Positions 15,641-36,880 of a DNA stretch of 45,756 bases are shown piece after piece; position 1 is the first letter of the stretch, and each line of letters opens with the position of its first letter. Origin of the DNA: an uncultured Bacteroidia bacterium (GTDB lineage Bacteria; Bacteroidota; Bacteroidia; Bacteroidales; ML635J-15); contig CADARW010000002.1 of assembly GCA_902790405.1 (NCBI GenBank), forward strand, positions 1 to 45,756, written 5' to 3'. The position numbers and the translations under genes were made by a program. The notes below the pieces were generated by a model, which saw nothing but the letters and a program-made list of their open reading frames with translations, searched no databases and was not told where the DNA came from.

Positions 15641-15949
15641 ATGATTGTAATTTGGTCTGAAAAAGCTGAAAATACCTTAAAGCAAACGGCTGATTATATT
15701 TTAGAAAAGTTTGGTGAAAATAATAGGAATAATTTTATTCAAGAAGTTTATAAAATTGTAAAGCTTTTAGAAACAAATCCCAATTTAGGCAAGATTGAAC
15801 CTTTGCTTGTTGATTTTCCTGAAATATATAGAAGTATTGTAGTAAATTTTTTGAATAAAATAATATATAGGGTTGAGAATGATAAAATTCTAATAGTTGC
15901 ATTATGGGATGTAAGAAGAGAACCTATGAATAATGTTTATTCAATTTAA
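15641..15949 (+). CDS. RelE/ParE-type toxin
   Basis: The 102-residue protein has the family layout: MIVIWSEKAENTLKQTADYI (first strand and helix), NPNLGKIEPL in the middle, YRSIVVNFLNKIIYRVEND, then ILIVALWDVRREPMN at the end. ParE members poison gyrase and RelE members cleave mRNA on the ribosome; the sequence alone does not tell which applies. The last four bases overlap the end of porQ on the other strand. It is AT-rich compared with its neighbours. Confidence 0.88.
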   Translation: MIVIWSEKAENTLKQTADYILEKFGENNRNNFIQEVYKIVKLLETNPNLGKIEPLLVDFPEIYRSIVVNFLNKIIYRVENDKILIVALWDVRREPMNNVYSI

Positions 15950-19272: not shown

Positions 19273-20280
19273 CTATATTACATAACCCAAATCCAGTTGA
19301 TTCACATGTCGTTTCCATATATTCATAACATTAGCTACTCTTTTCTCAACAAATGGTAAATAGTCTTGATATTGTCCTAATTGATTTCTAAATTGCTCCA
19401 AATCATCAAATCTAAGCGGAAAAGAGAAATGTCGAGATACTTCTTTTCCTGTTACTACATCATAAGTGTATGTCATATTAATATCTTTCCCACTATAATT
19501 CTTGTCGAATACGATGAAATACACATATATACTATAGTATTCCATCATTGCATACAGCAATCTTGTTTTTGAAGTCCCCTCAATATGAATCATGTGCGTA
19601 ACCTGTTCATTATTTTCTATATAGGGCAATGTTTTGGAGAGATAAAGGTATAATACGTCTTTGGTGTCCGCCTTACCTTCAATATATGGCACAAGCAATT
19701 TTACTGCATCAGCATCATGCGTCATGAAGACATAGTAATTAGTAGCAGACTTGATGATACTTGGAAAAGCTTCATCAGAAATACAAATCTGTCTTTGCAA
19801 TATCGGGTGAAACTCTTCAATTTCTGCTTTTGTCATTATTTCTTCAACATATTTTTGTGGCAATTCTTTCCGCTTGACCATTCCTGTCAGAATATCATGC
19901 AATTCTTTCTTATTCCTAACTTTCAAATGTATTCTTTTTCGCCCATCTTTATTTTCGATATTTATATATGGTTTCCGTAATATAGCAGTCTCCCCCCCAT
20001 TATTAACAATAATCTCATGACCTTCTTCATCAACCATGACTTGATTATGATTATTTTGGCGACTCTTCTTTACTTTTAGCATATCTGTGTAAAATGACAA
20101 ATCTTCAGCAAGTTGGCAATCAGCTGCTTCACCAATTCTTACATTACAATCATTGCAAATGATAGTATTGGAATGTAAATGACCACCTAAAGCATTCAAA
20201 ATGATATGTTCATTCGTTTTGTTTGCATCAGTTATTTCTTCTCCGCAAATGTAGCAGTAATATTTATGCTCTTTATTCAT
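19273..20280 (-). CDS. HNH-endonuclease domain protein
   Basis: The first 55 residues form an HNH/zinc-ribbon nuclease module: CYICG (C9, C12), NEHIILNALGG with the E-H pair near residue 28, and IICNDCNVRIG (C43, C46). The remaining 280 residues are a mixed alpha/beta region without a family I recognise, containing RKPYINIENKDGRKRIHLKV and a stretch rich in Tyr and Phe near the end. The HNH core suggests DNA or RNA cleavage, and such proteins are common in defence islets; the specific role is unknown. It is low in GC and near the Abi, XRE and PLD genes. Its own terminator lies downstream. Confidence 0.75.
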   Translation of the reverse strand: MNKEHKYYCYICGEEITDANKTNEHIILNALGGHLHSNTIICNDCNVRIGEAADCQLAEDLSFYTDMLKVKKSRQNNHNQVMVDEEGHEIIVNNGGETAILRKPYINIENKDGRKRIHLKVRNKKELHDILTGMVKRKELPQKYVEEIMTKAEIEEFHPILQRQICISDEAFPSIIKSATNYYVFMTHDADAVKLLVPYIEGKADTKDVLYLYLSKTLPYIENNEQVTHMIHIEGTSKTRLLYAMMEYYSIYVYFIVFDKNYSGKDINMTYTYDVVTGKEVSRHFSFPLRFDDLEQFRNQLGQYQDYLPFVEKRVANVMNIWKRHVNQLDLGYVI

Positions 20281-20447: not shown

Positions 20448-23400
20448 TTAATTCTGCACCACCCGTACCAAACGGACAGAATGACCGTAGTAGCGACCAC
20501 CGCCGTCGGCCATGTAAGCATTGCTGACATGGAAGCATAGGTACCATGCATAGTTGTTGCTGCCGCCAGCCGTCGAAGCCGTCGAAGACCAGTAAGCGCC
20601 GCTTGAACTGACACTGCCCACGCTCGTACCGTAGAAGCGGTCGCCAGCAGCGGGAAGAAACACAGCACCTGCCAACTCCATTGCAGACCATTGCGAAGTT
20701 GTATAGGTGTTTGCGGTGAACTCCTTGCCTATTCCAGAGGTAAACGAGCAGCCAGATGGCAATGTCCAGTTGTCTGGCAAGAAGACAAGACCGGTAACAC
20801 CGTTTACTGTTGCCTTTCCTACCAGCGAGGCAGCATTGGTGCGACCGCTCAGCAGGTAGCTCCATTCGTCCTTGGTGAGAGTGCGCCACAATCCGCCTTG
20901 GTTGCCACCGTTGCTGATGGTGTTGTTGCCCCAGTCGGTAAATATGTAATAACTGCTGTTATTGGTGCTTGTATTTGTGGGGTTCCTGCCTGTGCCCCAG
21001 CCGAAGAGGTCTATCCAGCCTGTGTACGAGGAAGATATGTTCGAGTTGGCGGAGCCTACTATGTCGTACTGGCTTGCAGCAAACTGCCAAGTATTGGTAT
21101 TTGCCTTGTACTGTAAGTTGCCTTGCGAGAAATAGACTTGTGTGGTCAAGGATGTTGAGAACACCCCACCAATGGCACCTTGTGGCAAAGATGTGAACTG
21201 CTTTGTCTCACCTATTGCCGTACTTATGGAGTTTGTTGCGTATGCACAATAATAATAAGTCGTGCGTTCCGTCAATCCTGTAAGGTTTACACTGAAATTA
21301 TTTGCTGTGCCATCATATATTGCATTGTTTTCAAGATTGTCAGCAGACGTACCCCAGTAGAAACCGCGGACTGTAATCTCTGTACCGCCATCATCGGTAA
21401 TAGTAGCGTTTAAGGTTGCTAAACTTGCTGTAATATTCGTTGCAGCATTTGTAACAACTGTAGGTGCTGTAAGCGGATTTGTACGAGATGAAAGAACTTC
21501 ACCAAGCGTGGTGCCACGAATGTTTGTTGCAGCAGCGCAATAGTAATATACGGTGTTTACTTCCAAATCGCTTATTGTTGCAGAGAAGTCTGCCGTTGTT
21601 TGCTCGGATGCCACGTAGTTTGGCAAATCGTTTTCGGCTGTTCCCCAATAGAATCCACGTGCTGTAACTGCCGCACCACCGTCGCTGGTAATGTTAGCAT
21701 TCAAGGTAAGCGAAGTTCTTGTGTTGTCGGTAGCAGGCATGGTTACAACCGTAGGTGCTACAATCTCTACAGTGGTAAACGACTTGGTTTCGCCGTATGC
21801 AGTGCCCTGCGTATTGGAGACGTATGCACGGTAGTAGTAGGTAGTGTTGTCGTCGAGGTCGGTAAGTGTGGTCGAAATTGCTCCTGCGCCTATTCCAAGC
21901 GTTACGGTGTTTGCAAGGTTGTCGGCAGAAGTGCCATACTGGAATCCTTTGGCTGTAATGGTGGAACCGCCATCGGAAGTAATGTTTCCGTTGAGCGTTG
22001 CAGAAGAGATTGTAACATCGGTTGCATCGTTTGTCACAACAGTAGGCAAGTAAAATTCAAGGGTTGTAAACTGCATTGCTTGTCCGTAAGCAGTTCCGCG
22101 GCTATTGGTCGCAAATGCCTTGTAGTAGTATGTTGTTACAGGTGATAATGATTCAATGTTTAAATAGAACACATTTTCTGTTGTTGCCGCGTTTACAGTT
22201 TCGTAGGTTGTAAAGTTTGAATACTGGCTGTAAATGAATCCCCTTGCCGTAACATCGGTACCACCGTCGGCAGTGATTTCGCCATTGAGTTTTGCCGAAA
22301 CGCGTGTAATTTCGGTTGCAGCCCTTGTTTCAACCGTCGGCGCAAGTATTTCGGGAGTTGTAAAGTTCAAGGTATTGCCGTATGCAGTACCTGCACTGTT
22401 GGTTGCATATGCTTTGTAGTAATAGGTGGTGTTGTCTGTAAGTCCATCAAGTGAAACGTTGAAGTTGCTTGTTCCAATGCCTGCCGTAACTTGTTCGCTT
22501 AGGTTGTCGGCGGTAGTACCCCAATAGAATCCGCGTCCCGTGATTGTAGCACCACCATCGGAAACTACTGCGCCATTGATTACCACTGATGTATAGGTCA
22601 CGTTGGTTGCCGCGTATGTTTCTACCGACGGATTACCTATTGCCAGAGTAGTAAAATTGAGTATTTCGCCGTAGGTTGTTCCAACGCTGTTGGTTGCGTA
22701 TGCCTTGTAGTAGTATGTAGTGCTAGGTGTAAGTTCTGCGATATTTGCCGAGAAACTGTAGGTTTCGCTATCGCTTGTAACGGTTGAAGATGTACTAAAC
22801 AATGGCGATGTGCTATATACAAATCCACGTTCGGTGATTTCTGCTCCGCCGTCAGAGGTTACAGTTCCGTTTATGGTTGCGCTAGTAACCGTAATGCCGC
22901 TTGCTGCAAGGGTTGTAACTGCTGGAGCGAGGTAAGAATCAGTGGTAAAAGTCTGCACTTCGCCCAAAGATGTTCCAACTTCATTGGTGGCGTATGCTTT
23001 CACATAATATGTTGTGCCTGTATTCAAACCTTCGAGGCTGTATCCGAAGTTGTTTGAAACAGATGAGCATGTGACTGTTTCGTACGAACCGAACATCGGC
23101 GAAGTGCTGTAGCGGAAACCGCATTCGGCAACTGCTGCTCCACCGTCGGAGGTTATGCTGCCAGCCAAGGTTGCCGTTGTGTATGTAACGCCAGTAACTG
23201 CAAGAGTACTTACCGTAGGAGCAACAACCGAGGATGTTGTAAAGCCCATAACTTCGCCATATACAGTGCCAAACTCATCTGTGGCGTATGCACGGAAATA
23301 ATATGTAGTATTTGCATCAAGTCCAGGAATGTTCATCGAGAATGTTGCATCGGTTGTGTTTACTGGCAAACTTACAGAAAGGTCGTTTTCGGAAACACCG

Positions 23401-24188
23401 AGCTGGAATCCGCGTGCGGTTACGCTTGCATTGTTTTCGGTTATGTTGCCGTTAAGCCTAGCAGAAGTAATTGTAATGTCGGTTGCGGCAAGTGTTACGA
23501 CAGTTGGGCGTGAATTATGCGTGAAATTTAGTGTAACATACTGGCTTGTATTCTGAGGTTGCTCAACGGCGGCACTAGTAACAACTTCGCCAGCAATGGT
23601 CGAATAGCCTATATATCGCATATTGTCTCCTGTCTGGAATTCATTGGCGGAGGTCAGTTTTGCCGTAATGCTGCCTGAAATACCAGCATACTTTATGCTG
23701 CTTCCGCAACCGCTGCCCATATTTACCATACGTATGGAATAGGAACGGCTTCCTACGGTTGCATTGAGTACGTATGTCTGCGGTGCTGCCGCCGAAATGT
23801 CGAAGGTATGTACACCTGCATCAAGCGAACCGCTATATTCGGCATACTGCTTTCCCGAAGCGTCAAGCAGCTGCATACGCACATTTTCGCGTTGAGATAC
23901 CGAAAGTTCAACGCGAGTTTCGCAGTCGAACGGATTTGGAATGTTCTGTCCAAGCCCCTGAGTGGCGGCAATGTTTAAGTCAGTACCCACAGTACCACCA
24001 AGCACAATTATTGTGTCGGGGTACTCGACTGTTTCAGTCCAGTCGCGTGTAATGTTAGTAACTTTAACACTGTCCAAACGGCAGTAGCTTGTTCCATTAA
24101 GTTGTCCTGTAAAGCGGACAGTGATTTCCTGCGAAAATGCAATTGTTCCTATTGAGAATAATACCAATAGTAAAACTATTTTTCTCAT
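20448..24188 (-). CDS. Giant secreted fibronectin-like repeat protein with C-type-lectin/FISUMP-like C-terminus
   Basis: This 1246-residue protein starts with a signal peptide (MRKIVLLLVLFSIGTIAFSQ). It then has an early FlgD/T9SS-like beta segment (QNIPNPFDCETRVELSVSQR, about residues 75-125) and a second short beta module. Eight tandem repeats of about 97 residues follow (about 225-1005), each with a (L/A)PTVVT start, SDGGAxxTxRGF, TTYYYKAYATN and GEVxxFTT. The last 240 residues (GAIGGVFSTSLTTQVYFSQG onward) match the lectin-like/FISUMP-type domain common in Bacteroidales, ending YWSSTASTAGGSNNYAWYLC ... RYYGHSVRLVRV. Such domains are used as DGR variable proteins, but no reverse transcriptase is in the window. 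The start at 24188 is the ATG; a GTG at 24197 is less likely. Surface binding is inferred. Confidence 0.85.
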   Translation of the reverse strand: MRKIVLLLVLFSIGTIAFSQEITVRFTGQLNGTSYCRLDSVKVTNITRDWTETVEYPDTIIVLGGTVGTDLNIAATQGLGQNIPNPFDCETRVELSVSQRENVRMQLLDASGKQYAEYSGSLDAGVHTFDISAAAPQTYVLNATVGSRSYSIRMVNMGSGCGSSIKYAGISGSITAKLTSANEFQTGDNMRYIGYSTIAGEVVTSAAVEQPQNTSQYVTLNFTHNSRPTVVTLAATDITITSARLNGNITENNASVTARGFQLGVSENDLSVSLPVNTTDATFSMNIPGLDANTTYYFRAYATDEFGTVYGEVMGFTTSSVVAPTVSTLAVTGVTYTTATLAGSITSDGGAAVAECGFRYSTSPMFGSYETVTCSSVSNNFGYSLEGLNTGTTYYVKAYATNEVGTSLGEVQTFTTDSYLAPAVTTLAASGITVTSATINGTVTSDGGAEITERGFVYSTSPLFSTSSTVTSDSETYSFSANIAELTPSTTYYYKAYATNSVGTTYGEILNFTTLAIGNPSVETYAATNVTYTSVVINGAVVSDGGATITGRGFYWGTTADNLSEQVTAGIGTSNFNVSLDGLTDNTTYYYKAYATNSAGTAYGNTLNFTTPEILAPTVETRAATEITRVSAKLNGEITADGGTDVTARGFIYSQYSNFTTYETVNAATTENVFYLNIESLSPVTTYYYKAFATNSRGTAYGQAMQFTTLEFYLPTVVTNDATDVTISSATLNGNITSDGGSTITAKGFQYGTSADNLANTVTLGIGAGAISTTLTDLDDNTTYYYRAYVSNTQGTAYGETKSFTTVEIVAPTVVTMPATDNTRTSLTLNANITSDGGAAVTARGFYWGTAENDLPNYVASEQTTADFSATISDLEVNTVYYYCAAATNIRGTTLGEVLSSRTNPLTAPTVVTNAATNITASLATLNATITDDGGTEITVRGFYWGTSADNLENNAIYDGTANNFSVNLTGLTERTTYYYCAYATNSISTAIGETKQFTSLPQGAIGGVFSTSLTTQVYFSQGNLQYKANTNTWQFAASQYDIVGSANSNISSSYTGWIDLFGWGTGRNPTNTSTNNSSYYIFTDWGNNTISNGGNQGGLWRTLTKDEWSYLLSGRTNAASLVGKATVNGVTGLVFLPDNWTLPSGCSFTSGIGKEFTANTYTTSQWSAMELAGAVFLPAAGDRFYGTSVGSVSSSGAYWSSTASTAGGSNNYAWYLCFHVSNAYMADGGGRYYGHSVRLVRVVQN

Positions 24189-24203
24189 ATAACTCACCCT
24201 TTT

Positions 24204-24223: not shown

Positions 24224-24520
24224 TTAATAACAGGCATTTTTACACTATAAAACACACTTGAGCAATGCCTAACAGCTCAAAATAAGTTCAGACACAAATT
24301 TAAACTATGTCTAACCTACATTAAAATATTTGGTGTTGCATATTTTACCCCGAATTTGTGGCGAATTTTACCACAAGGGAATTTACGATTGACGAAGTAC
24401 GATTGACGATTTTGCCGACAAGATGCAAAAGGATTTATTTTTAGTTGGTCGAGCAAAGCAGAGTCGTGATGTTTTTCAGAAAAAAGTTTGAAAAAGTTAC
24501 GCCATTTCAAAAATAAGTTC
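24224..24520. other. Divergent intergenic region between the repeat protein and the Abi gene
   Basis: The 24189-24592 gap holds the roughly 100-nt leader of the fibronectin-repeat gene (minus strand), whose probable -7 box is at 24295-24302. It also holds two direct copies of TACGATTGACGA (24384-24395 and 24399-24410), and the promoter and RNA-like leader of the Abi gene. In the leader, AGGCATT and AATGCCT can pair on the minus strand. No ORF is credible here. Confidence 0.45.
24295..24302 (-). promoter_or_regulatory. Likely -7 box of the fibronectin-repeat gene
   Basis: The minus strand reads TAAATTTG followed by T. It would give a 5' leader of about 100 nt that includes the shared 20-bp element. 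No convincing -33 is seen. Confidence 0.4.
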
Positions 24521-24528
24521 TATCTTTG
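24521..24528 (+). promoter_or_regulatory. -7 box upstream of the Abi leader RNA
   Basis: TATCTTTG followed by C is a consensus -7 element, placing a transcription start near 24534, just before the hairpin at 24538-24579. Confidence 0.6.
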
Positions 24529-24533
24529 CATCA

Positions 24534-24588
24534 ACAAACTTACCCCGCTTCCCGCAAGAACAGCGCGCTTAGGGTAAGTCTTTTTTTA
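24534..24588 (+). ncRNA. Compact structured leader RNA of the Abi/HEPN gene
   Basis: ACTTACCC (24538-24545) pairs perfectly with GGGTAAGT (24572-24579), and the next bases CGCT (24546-24549) pair with AGCG (24562-24565). The stem is followed by C and seven T residues, so the transcript could end here as an RNA of about 50 nt. The Abi ATG is only 14 bp beyond the stem. Conserved RNAs are known directly upstream of abiF-type genes and are thought to act as RNA partners of the HEPN protein. The fold and position are visible; membership of that RNA family is inferred. Confidence 0.55.
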
Positions 24589-24592
24589 TATT

Positions 24593-25480
24593 ATGGCAAA
24601 TTATACAGATAGACCATTGAATTTTAACGAACAGATTGCTTTACTCAAAAGCAAAGGTCTTATTTTTGCAAATGAGGACAAGGCATTGCATATTTTGCAG
24701 AATGTGAGCTATTTTCGGATGAAAAGTTACCTGATGCCGCTTATGGAAGATAAAATCAACCACACATTTAAAGAAGGTGCAACTTTTGAACAGGCATTTG
24801 AATTATATAAATTCGATGATTGTCTGCGGAAATTAGTCATGGCGGAATTGGAAAAGATTGAAATTTCAGTACGTACCCAAATGGCATATAAATTGGCCGA
24901 TGAAATTGGAATTTACTGGTTTTCGGACAACAACAATTTTATTGACCAACCAAAGCACGCTATTGTAATGACTAATCTTAAGTCTGAATTTGCTCGTAGC
25001 GATGATGAACAAATATTGCGTTTTAAGGAGATGTATTCAGATCCTTTTCCTCCAGCATGGATGACATTAGAGATTTCGTCTTTTGGCACACTGTCAATGC
25101 TATATAAATTGCTGAAACCTTCTAATGTAAAGCGAAGTGTTGCTAATTTTTACGGTATTAGCGATAAAGTCTTTGAATCGTGGCTACATAGTATAGTTTA
25201 TGTTAGGAATATTTGCGCCCATCATAGTAGATTGTGGAACAAATCCCTGCGTATTAAACCATTATATCCCCGAAAAACAGAATATGCATTTCTTTCCCCT
25301 TCTGTTCGCCACGACCGTGCGTATTATGTTCTGTCTATAATTCAATATCTTCTTAAAATAGTCAATCCTAAAACAACATTCCCCGTTAAATTAAAGAACC
25401 TACTTAACGATTTTCCGAGTGTTGATATTGCTGCAATGGGATTTTCCAATGATTGGTTTAAGGAAGAACTTTGGAGATAA
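24593..25480 (+). CDS. Abi family (AbiD/AbiF-like) HEPN protein
   Basis: The 295-residue protein belongs to the Abi_2 family of abortive-infection proteins, related to HEPN RNases. The start YTDRPLNFNEQIALLKSKGL is the family signature. SYFRMKSYLMPL and YKFDDCLRKLVMAELEKIEI follow, and near residue 205 comes the HEPN Rx4-6H motif in YVRNICAHHSRLWNKSLRIK. Family members are phage-defence or toxin-antitoxin effectors that act on RNA. The upstream hairpin RNA (24534-24588) is in the position where abiF-associated RNAs are found. The gene is lower in GC than the housekeeping genes around it. Confidence 0.92.
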   Translation: MANYTDRPLNFNEQIALLKSKGLIFANEDKALHILQNVSYFRMKSYLMPLMEDKINHTFKEGATFEQAFELYKFDDCLRKLVMAELEKIEISVRTQMAYKLADEIGIYWFSDNNNFIDQPKHAIVMTNLKSEFARSDDEQILRFKEMYSDPFPPAWMTLEISSFGTLSMLYKLLKPSNVKRSVANFYGISDKVFESWLHSIVYVRNICAHHSRLWNKSLRIKPLYPRKTEYAFLSPSVRHDRAYYVLSIIQYLLKIVNPKTTFPVKLKNLLNDFPSVDIAAMGFSNDWFKEELWR

Positions 25481-25530
25481 ATATATCTTTCCTTTCAATT
25501 TATAACAGTAACAAATACGCAATAAAACCT

Positions 25531-26225: not shown

Positions 26226-26240
26226 CGGAAAAATATTGAT

Positions 26241-26975
26241 ATGGAATTTGATTCTGGTTATTGTTCTGATAAAGAATTATCTTTTCTATTGGAAGAATTG
26301 ATCCAAGGAACAAGAAATTGGCTTATAATAGTAAGTCCATTTGTTCGAATTTCAGGAAGAATAAAAGGATATTTAGAGAAATTAATATCAAGAAAGGTTA
26401 AGATTATTTTAGTTTACAAAACTAATAGCGACAAACTTGTAAACATAAAAGAAGAGGATTATCAATGGTTGATTGAAAATAAGGTTCAAGTCAAAAGTTC
26501 TAGAAATTTACATGCAAAATGCTATATAAATGAAAAATGTGCACTTGTAACATCAATGAATTTAGTTGATTATTCATTGTCAAATAATTTTGAAATGGGT
26601 GTTGCATATTCTGCAAAATCAGATTATGATACCTATATGTACATTTTGAAAGATGTTTTACAAATTAATTGTGATGGGACAAAGATAGATTTTAATTATT
26701 ATAAAAATAGTTCAGATAGAGGATTTTGCATAAGAACAGGCATTGAAATTCCTTTCAATATAGATAAACCAATGTGTGACGAAGCATGGGAAGAATGGTG
26801 TAAAATTGGAGATCCAGATACGCCGGAGAAATATTGTCATTATACAGGTGAAGAATCTAATGGAGAAACCAGTGTAAGGTTTCCAATAAAATATGAAAAT
26901 TTTCAAGAGGCATGTAGTGAATATCATATTAGTGGTTTTCGAGACAAAAGCATGTGGAAAAAAAAGAATAAGTAA
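26241..26975 (+). CDS. Phospholipase D-like (HKD) domain protein
   Basis: The 244-residue protein has one PLD-type catalytic motif, LHAKCYINEKCALVTSMNL (about residues 90-108), where H and K are followed by TSMN. An N-terminal strand-helix unit (NWLIIVSPFVRISGRIKGYL) is typical of PLD-like nucleases. Single-motif members act as dimers and include DNases and restriction-type nucleases. The C-terminal 90 residues are Trp- and Cys-containing (CDEAWEEWCKIGDPDTPEKY) and unrecognised. The gene is very AT-rich, lies among the Abi and XRE genes, and ends 41 bp before pheS. A nuclease role in defence is plausible but not shown. Confidence 0.75.
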   Translation: MEFDSGYCSDKELSFLLEELIQGTRNWLIIVSPFVRISGRIKGYLEKLISRKVKIILVYKTNSDKLVNIKEEDYQWLIENKVQVKSSRNLHAKCYINEKCALVTSMNLVDYSLSNNFEMGVAYSAKSDYDTYMYILKDVLQINCDGTKIDFNYYKNSSDRGFCIRTGIEIPFNIDKPMCDEAWEEWCKIGDPDTPEKYCHYTGEESNGETSVRFPIKYENFQEACSEYHISGFRDKSMWKKKNK

Positions 26976-26992
26976 AATTAGTTTGAATAGAT

Positions 26993-36844: not shown

Positions 36845-36846
36845 AT

Positions 36847-36880
36847 AAAAAAATGCCCACCGCAAACGATGGGCATTTTA
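36847..36880 (-). terminator. Terminator of the ECF sigma operon
   Basis: On the minus strand AAAATGCCCA pairs with TGGGCATTTTTTT (loop of 10 bases with slight mismatch), 15-50 bp after the stop of the membrane protein. Confidence 0.85.

Follow-up and report, generated by a model that had tools for sequence, protein, structure and literature searches.

Does a compact RNA wedged between the promoter and the start codon of an abortive infection (Abi) gene control the toxin that follows it? The question is raised by a locus in a 45,756-nucleotide (nt) stretch of DNA, here called the window, from an uncultured Bacteroidia bacterium of the Bacteroidales lineage ML635J-15 (contig CADARW010000002.1 of assembly GCA_902790405.1), for which an initial annotation had suggested an RNA-regulated HEPN ribonuclease (RNase) toxin. 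Our comparative analysis speaks for that suggestion, as indicated by a conserved order of elements, by covariation, by the tracking of RNA class with toxin clade and by the overlay of a protein model on a solved complex of AbiF with its noncoding RNA (ncRNA). It is very likely that the window toxin is kept off by its own leader RNA and, with good confidence, we read the locus as a type III-like toxin-antitoxin module in which a single hairpin would act both as the intrinsic terminator that limits readthrough into the toxin gene and as the antitoxin.

Anatomy and conservation of the leader RNA

All elements of the module lie on the forward strand. A Bacteroidota-type -7 promoter box, TATCTTTG (24521..24528), precedes an AbiF-associated RNA of the class that we call type 1, a predicted antitoxin at 24533..24588 (ends approximate) that the type-1 covariance model scores at 81.4 bits. 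Its outer stem P1 is a perfect helix of 8 bp (24538..24545 with 24572..24579), its inner stem P2 pairs CGCT (24546..24549) with AGCG (24562..24565), and the two are completed by the highly conserved loop TCCCGCAAGAAC (24550..24561) and by an unpaired 3' bulge, CGCTTA (24566..24571), which is the predicted contact with the toxin. Directly after P1 follows a T-run (24581..24587), a predicted intrinsic terminator, and the ATG of the Abi gene lies at 24593. Promoter box, both stems, T-run and ATG are thus all found where the initial annotation had placed them. The fold of the window leader reaches -14.1 kcal/mol (z -2.76), a value equalled by 1 of 200 shuffles. A simple promoter and terminator scan of the window, which allowed loops of just 3-8 nt, was uninformative and left the leader terminator unlisted. 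The window holds a second, weak match to the type-1 model at 36846-36879 on the reverse strand (E 0.011).

A genome scan returned 80 relatives. A near-identical leader, type 1, is present in loci L001-L038 (among them L017, from the cultured Phocaeicola coprophilus DSM 18228) except L032, which has none, and L037, where it is cut off, and it is kept although the proteins diverge to ~40% identity; the alignment of 35 type-1 loci (A1) has a mean column identity of 89%. Covariation was counted on 29 distinct type-1 sequences and 12 pairs, and all 348 of the resulting 348 cells hold standard pairs, with two-sided changes in 5 of the 12 pairs (38 cells). P1 shows such changes in four of its eight pairs and no broken pair, and in P2 a swap from G-C to C-G is seen in three distinct sequences, while none of the shuffles equals the real alignment in pairing, in changed cells or in covariation score. 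In the aligned leaders the stem is therefore both conserved and covarying, in line with the initial annotation. The bulge reads CGCTYA throughout the 35 loci, only one position varying.

Most of the more distant relatives carry a related hairpin, type 2, which shows the same covariation. The type-2 covariance model matches the window RNA (E 3e-8) and the type-1 model matches the type-2 RNAs, therefore both RNAs are homologous. Transcription signals are conserved along with the structure: a gap of exactly 4 nt separates the end of a TAnnTTTG box from the RNA core that follows it in 34 of 36 type-1 and 26 of 27 type-2 loci (60 of 63 cellular loci in total), which lies far above what chance would give, the background rate being 1.2% per 27-nt stretch of the window. 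Furthermore, at least five T occur within 8 nt after the stem in 36 of 36 type-1 loci, and a T-rich tail is found in all 63 cellular loci. Taken by this comparative evidence, the leader RNA is real.

The toxin gene and its product

The gene downstream (24593..25480) encodes an AbiF/AbiD-type HEPN toxin of 295 aa. It is an Abi_2 (AbiD/F) protein, matching Pfam Abi_2 (PF07751) with an E value of 3.5e-53 and 181.1 bits, above the cut-off of 25.6, and PADLOC AbiD with 3.6e-73. In a phmmer search of solved structures its sole strong match was 8vz6 (E 4.6e-65), a PbAbiF dimer bound to its ncRNA; this PbAbiF-AbiFr complex (PDB 8vz6) was reportedly described by Zilberzwige-Tal and colleagues in Cell in 2025. 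An AlphaFold2 model of the window protein (mean predicted local distance difference test score 94.9) has the AbiF fold, Foldseek matching it to 8vz6 with a template modelling (TM) score of 0.94 and E 1.3e-24.

The likeness to PbAbiF thus covers the full-length fold, with 35-37% sequence identity, and extends to the position of the HEPN motif. The motif claimed in the initial annotation is borne out as RNICAH at aa 205-210 (Rx4H; 25205..25222), with R205, N206, A209 and H210 invariant in 40 homologues. In the phmmer alignment R205 and H210 lie opposite R210 and H215 of PbAbiF, and the double mutant of these two residues is reported to be inactive (PMC12373285). The window gene is a probable RNA-cutting suicide gene.

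Linkage of RNA and toxin

Scanning 295 genomes of the class with the type-1 model at a cut-off of 38 bits gave 12 matches, all of them ahead of an Abi_2 gene or what is left of one. For 11 the gene or fragment was recognised by the family hidden Markov model; at the twelfth, L094, a recognisable Abi N-terminus follows and then breaks off, as judged from the translation. Matches in cellular genomes below about 38 bits are mostly without an Abi gene and partly due to chance. The RNA has been kept beside a broken toxin gene at L090, L094 and L095, which would fit the RNA being the harmless member of the pair.

RNA and toxin are also inherited together. On a tree of 124 toxins, with pattern-based RNA classes and about 20 rows classed by eye, type-1 RNAs fill one branch (support 99/96), where 44 of 45 rows have them and only the long-branched L032 does not, and RF03085-type RNAs occupy a separate one (100/100). 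The class label changes 11 times along the tree, compared with 68.9 times after shuffling, so RNA class follows toxin clade. Finally, the whole module of ~1.07 kb (24438..25503) is gained and lost as one piece: in the sister genomes G673, G480, G664 and G665 the flanks are intact and this stretch is missing, and it is present in a UBA1184 contig (L257). These empty sites are clean, so the module moves as a whole, the promoter and the RNA together with the gene.

Proposed mechanism and alternatives

In the mechanism that we propose, the promoter would drive an RNA of ~50 nt in which two stacked stems carry a conserved loop and, on one side only, a 3' bulge. P1 and the T-run would form an intrinsic terminator at which most transcripts end, readthrough alone giving the toxin messenger RNA, and the freed hairpin, by homology to related systems, would bind the AbiF HEPN dimer and restrain the RNase. 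A shut-off of transcription or depletion of the RNA, for instance when a phage infects, would leave AbiF free to cleave RNA and to halt the cell. The fixed order of promoter box, RNA, T-run and gene is, at the sequence level, that of type III toxin-antitoxin systems.

Several related systems are known. In Clostridioides difficile, the RNA RCd22 binds AbiF directly and neutralises it both in cis and in trans, and most transcription ends at a terminator that precedes the gene (PMC12373285). The window locus resembles it in its Abi_2 toxin, in the leader RNA and terminator before the gene and in the shared promoter, whereas RCd22 has two abiF motifs and a separate terminator and the window hairpin would do both jobs. 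By homology, the window RNA would act as RCd22 does, control in cis and in trans being known for RCd22 and predicted here. With PbAbiF-AbiFr the window shares a hairpin ncRNA immediately upstream and a one-sided bulge. Because bulge nucleotides of PbAbiFr are reported to inhibit the toxin, we infer that the CGCTYA bulge touches the toxin. PbAbiF differs in belonging to a separate, well-supported toxin clade. ToxIN likewise combines an RNA antitoxin, a terminator and an RNase toxin, and has phage-borne RNA copies (pseudo-ToxI of PhiTE), but its toxin and RNA folds are unrelated and ToxI is a tandem repeat, as classical type III antitoxins are.

Some observations weigh against a module of this kind. 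In the window and in its type-1 relatives the RNA stands as a single copy before the gene, not as the tandem repeat of type III systems; the homologues L032 and L164 have an intact HEPN motif and no such RNA; and the Rfam abiF RNA model (RF03085), which the initial annotation had proposed for checking the leader, gives no hit in the window at any threshold, up to E 10 when 401 nt were searched.

RF03085 also finds nothing in the rest of the source genome, and it matches other Abi_2 loci in relatives (Phocaeicola, Leyella and others), among them L135, the closest relative of PbAbiF found (89% identical), whose leader is of RF03085 type and not type 1. By inspection, RF03085 and the window RNA share their build, a small hairpin of two stems and a 3' bulge, and their place immediately before an Abi_2 gene, and they differ in sequence and stem lengths. 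Because RF03085 misses the window and matches these other loci, the sequences indicate that the window RNA is a separate Bacteroidota class with the same architecture of two stems, loop and 3' bulge. The class is new, within a known kind of AbiF RNA-toxin pair, the functional precedents for which (C. difficile AbiF and PbAbiF) date from 2025. Yet other arrangements occur: the leaders of L163 and L103 belong to a further hairpin class upstream of Abi_2 (e.g. CTTAGCATACCGTAAGATCTGCTGG in L163), unlike type 1, type 2 and RF03085, and in L237 (1400-1600) and L108 (~1501-1575) two different AbiF-type hairpins stand in tandem before one Abi_2 gene.

Among the alternatives, the hairpin might be a transcription attenuator or cis-regulatory 5' untranslated region of the Abi gene only, without toxin binding, as described for AbiD1 of Lactococcus. 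A stem and T-run do stand directly before the ATG in every cellular type-1 locus, and a structured 5' untranslated region with a short premature transcript is reported for abiD1 (cited in PMC12373285). We nevertheless regard this as unlikely: a terminator could do without a conserved loop and 3' bulge, yet both rank with the least variable portions of the RNA; the class of RNA goes with the sequence of the toxin; and in phages the same core recurs where there is no Abi gene and, in many cases, no T-run. It is considerably less plausible still that the locus has decayed into a remnant, an ancient Abi gene that no longer functions and has retained its leader; the module is indeed missing from sister genomes, but its frame is open, its catalytic residues are invariant, its promoter is intact and its RNA perfect, and true decayed copies (L090, L094 and L095) look different. 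Least credible of all is a guide RNA directing the HEPN RNase to targets in a ribonucleoprotein like an ancestor of Cas13, as AbiF has been proposed to be, since the RNA is near-invariant across Bacteroidota families with no spacer-like variable part in the 35-locus alignment, the structure search with the window AbiF model gave no confident Cas13 match, and the protein has one HEPN motif in 295 aa, as in 8vz6, and not the two in one chain of Cas13.

Orphan copies in virus contigs

Unexpectedly, nearly all AbiF-type RNAs in virus contigs are orphans that lack an Abi_2 gene. IMG/VR was searched with exact RNA core patterns, giving 21 contigs for type 1, 23 for type 2 and 45 for RF03085 (89 in total), partly near-duplicates (e.g. 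L117/L124, L131/L132, L130/L134, L169/L180, L184/L187 and L222/L224). An Abi_2 gene occurs anywhere in the record for only one of the 21 type-1 contigs (L115), and 48 of the 50 type-2 and RF03085 records scanned whole have none; overall, 68 of 71 whole records lack one and, over all 89, three loci have one, although many records are fragments, so that absence falls short of proof.

These orphan hairpins look like maintained structures and not like relics. In 16 type-1 orphans, 77 of 80 cells of the five outer pairs left free by the search pattern are paired, with 24 two-sided changes, and none of the shuffles comes as high. A same-strand transfer RNA (tRNA) gene lies within 500 nt of 44 of 86 orphans; random positions would give about 8, and of the 57 cellular copies 2 have such a neighbour. 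The contigs carry phage genes, for portal (L118), baseplate (L120), terminase (L125 and L181), a virion protein (L127), DNA polymerase (L166) and an endolysin-like protein (L168). Promoter box (6 of 43) and T-run (24 of 43) are both rarer than in cellular loci, as expected if many copies ride tRNA operons without a toxin downstream.

A blastn search of phage isolates with type-1 and type-2 RNAs gave no real match, only RF03085-type copies being found: one at 77198-77235 in Acinetobacter phage Acj61, near its tRNA cluster, and one between the scaffold and capsid genes of Roseobacter phage CRP-143. A search for a plasmid-borne AbiF with an RNA like the Acj61 copy returned only one Phocaeicola plasmid.

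The simplest reading is that the orphans are probably decoy antitoxins. Copies, many of them within tRNA arrays and some next to another AbiF-type hairpin, would then hold host AbiF off during infection. We lean, by a modest margin, towards the broader view that stand-alone AbiF antitoxin RNAs, the window's class among them, are widespread in tailed phages and serve as decoys, which would make this a general RNA-based anti-Abi strategy. Pseudo-ToxI of phage PhiTE has been shown to be a decoy antitoxin, which became active when it expanded in escape mutants of that one phage (PMC3475682). Racr RNA anti-CRISPRs are likewise described as lone copies, encoded by phages, of an RNA from host defence, though they target CRISPR-Cas, whereas the orphans here resemble AbiF antitoxins (PMC10651486). 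A cyanophage abiF small RNA was once listed without a decoy interpretation (PMC9964418), and in the literature searched, mostly papers outside subscription, we found no proposal of a decoy role for AbiF RNAs.

Further copies without an Abi gene at the locus were seen in cells. The type-2 RNAs L100 (G059:C17:10620-10675) and L102 (G172:C23:124539-124594), the latter followed by a second, RF03085-like hairpin, are possibly prophage-borne decoys or remnants, and at L098 and L236 (G104:C33, 84322 and 90308) two AbiF-type hairpins lie ~6 kb apart with no Abi gene detected at either locus. In the virus contigs L216 and L219, two RF03085-type hairpins stand in direct tandem, again at loci without an Abi gene.

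Neighbouring genes

Between the Abi module and pheS, a PLD-like nuclease gene (26238-26991, forward strand; PLDc_2 E 9e-9, weak PADLOC match to DrmC/MkoB) forms a second cassette that varies in presence among the sister genomes, so that the two make up a small defence-like hot spot. The window also encodes a ParE-type toxin (15641-15949, forward strand; Pfam E 1.3e-11), and a protein with an HNH_5 endonuclease domain (19273-20280, reverse strand) adjoins a giant repetitive surface-type protein (20448-24197, reverse strand).

Implications

We believe that a further, well-defined class of RNA, paired with a toxin clade of its own, offers natural swaps for studying RNA-toxin recognition. The decoy idea is testable with the collection isolates Acj61 and CRP-143. 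If the phage orphans are decoys, RNA-based counter-defence against AbiF would be common, and some of the unexplained hairpins in phage tRNA arrays would have found a role.
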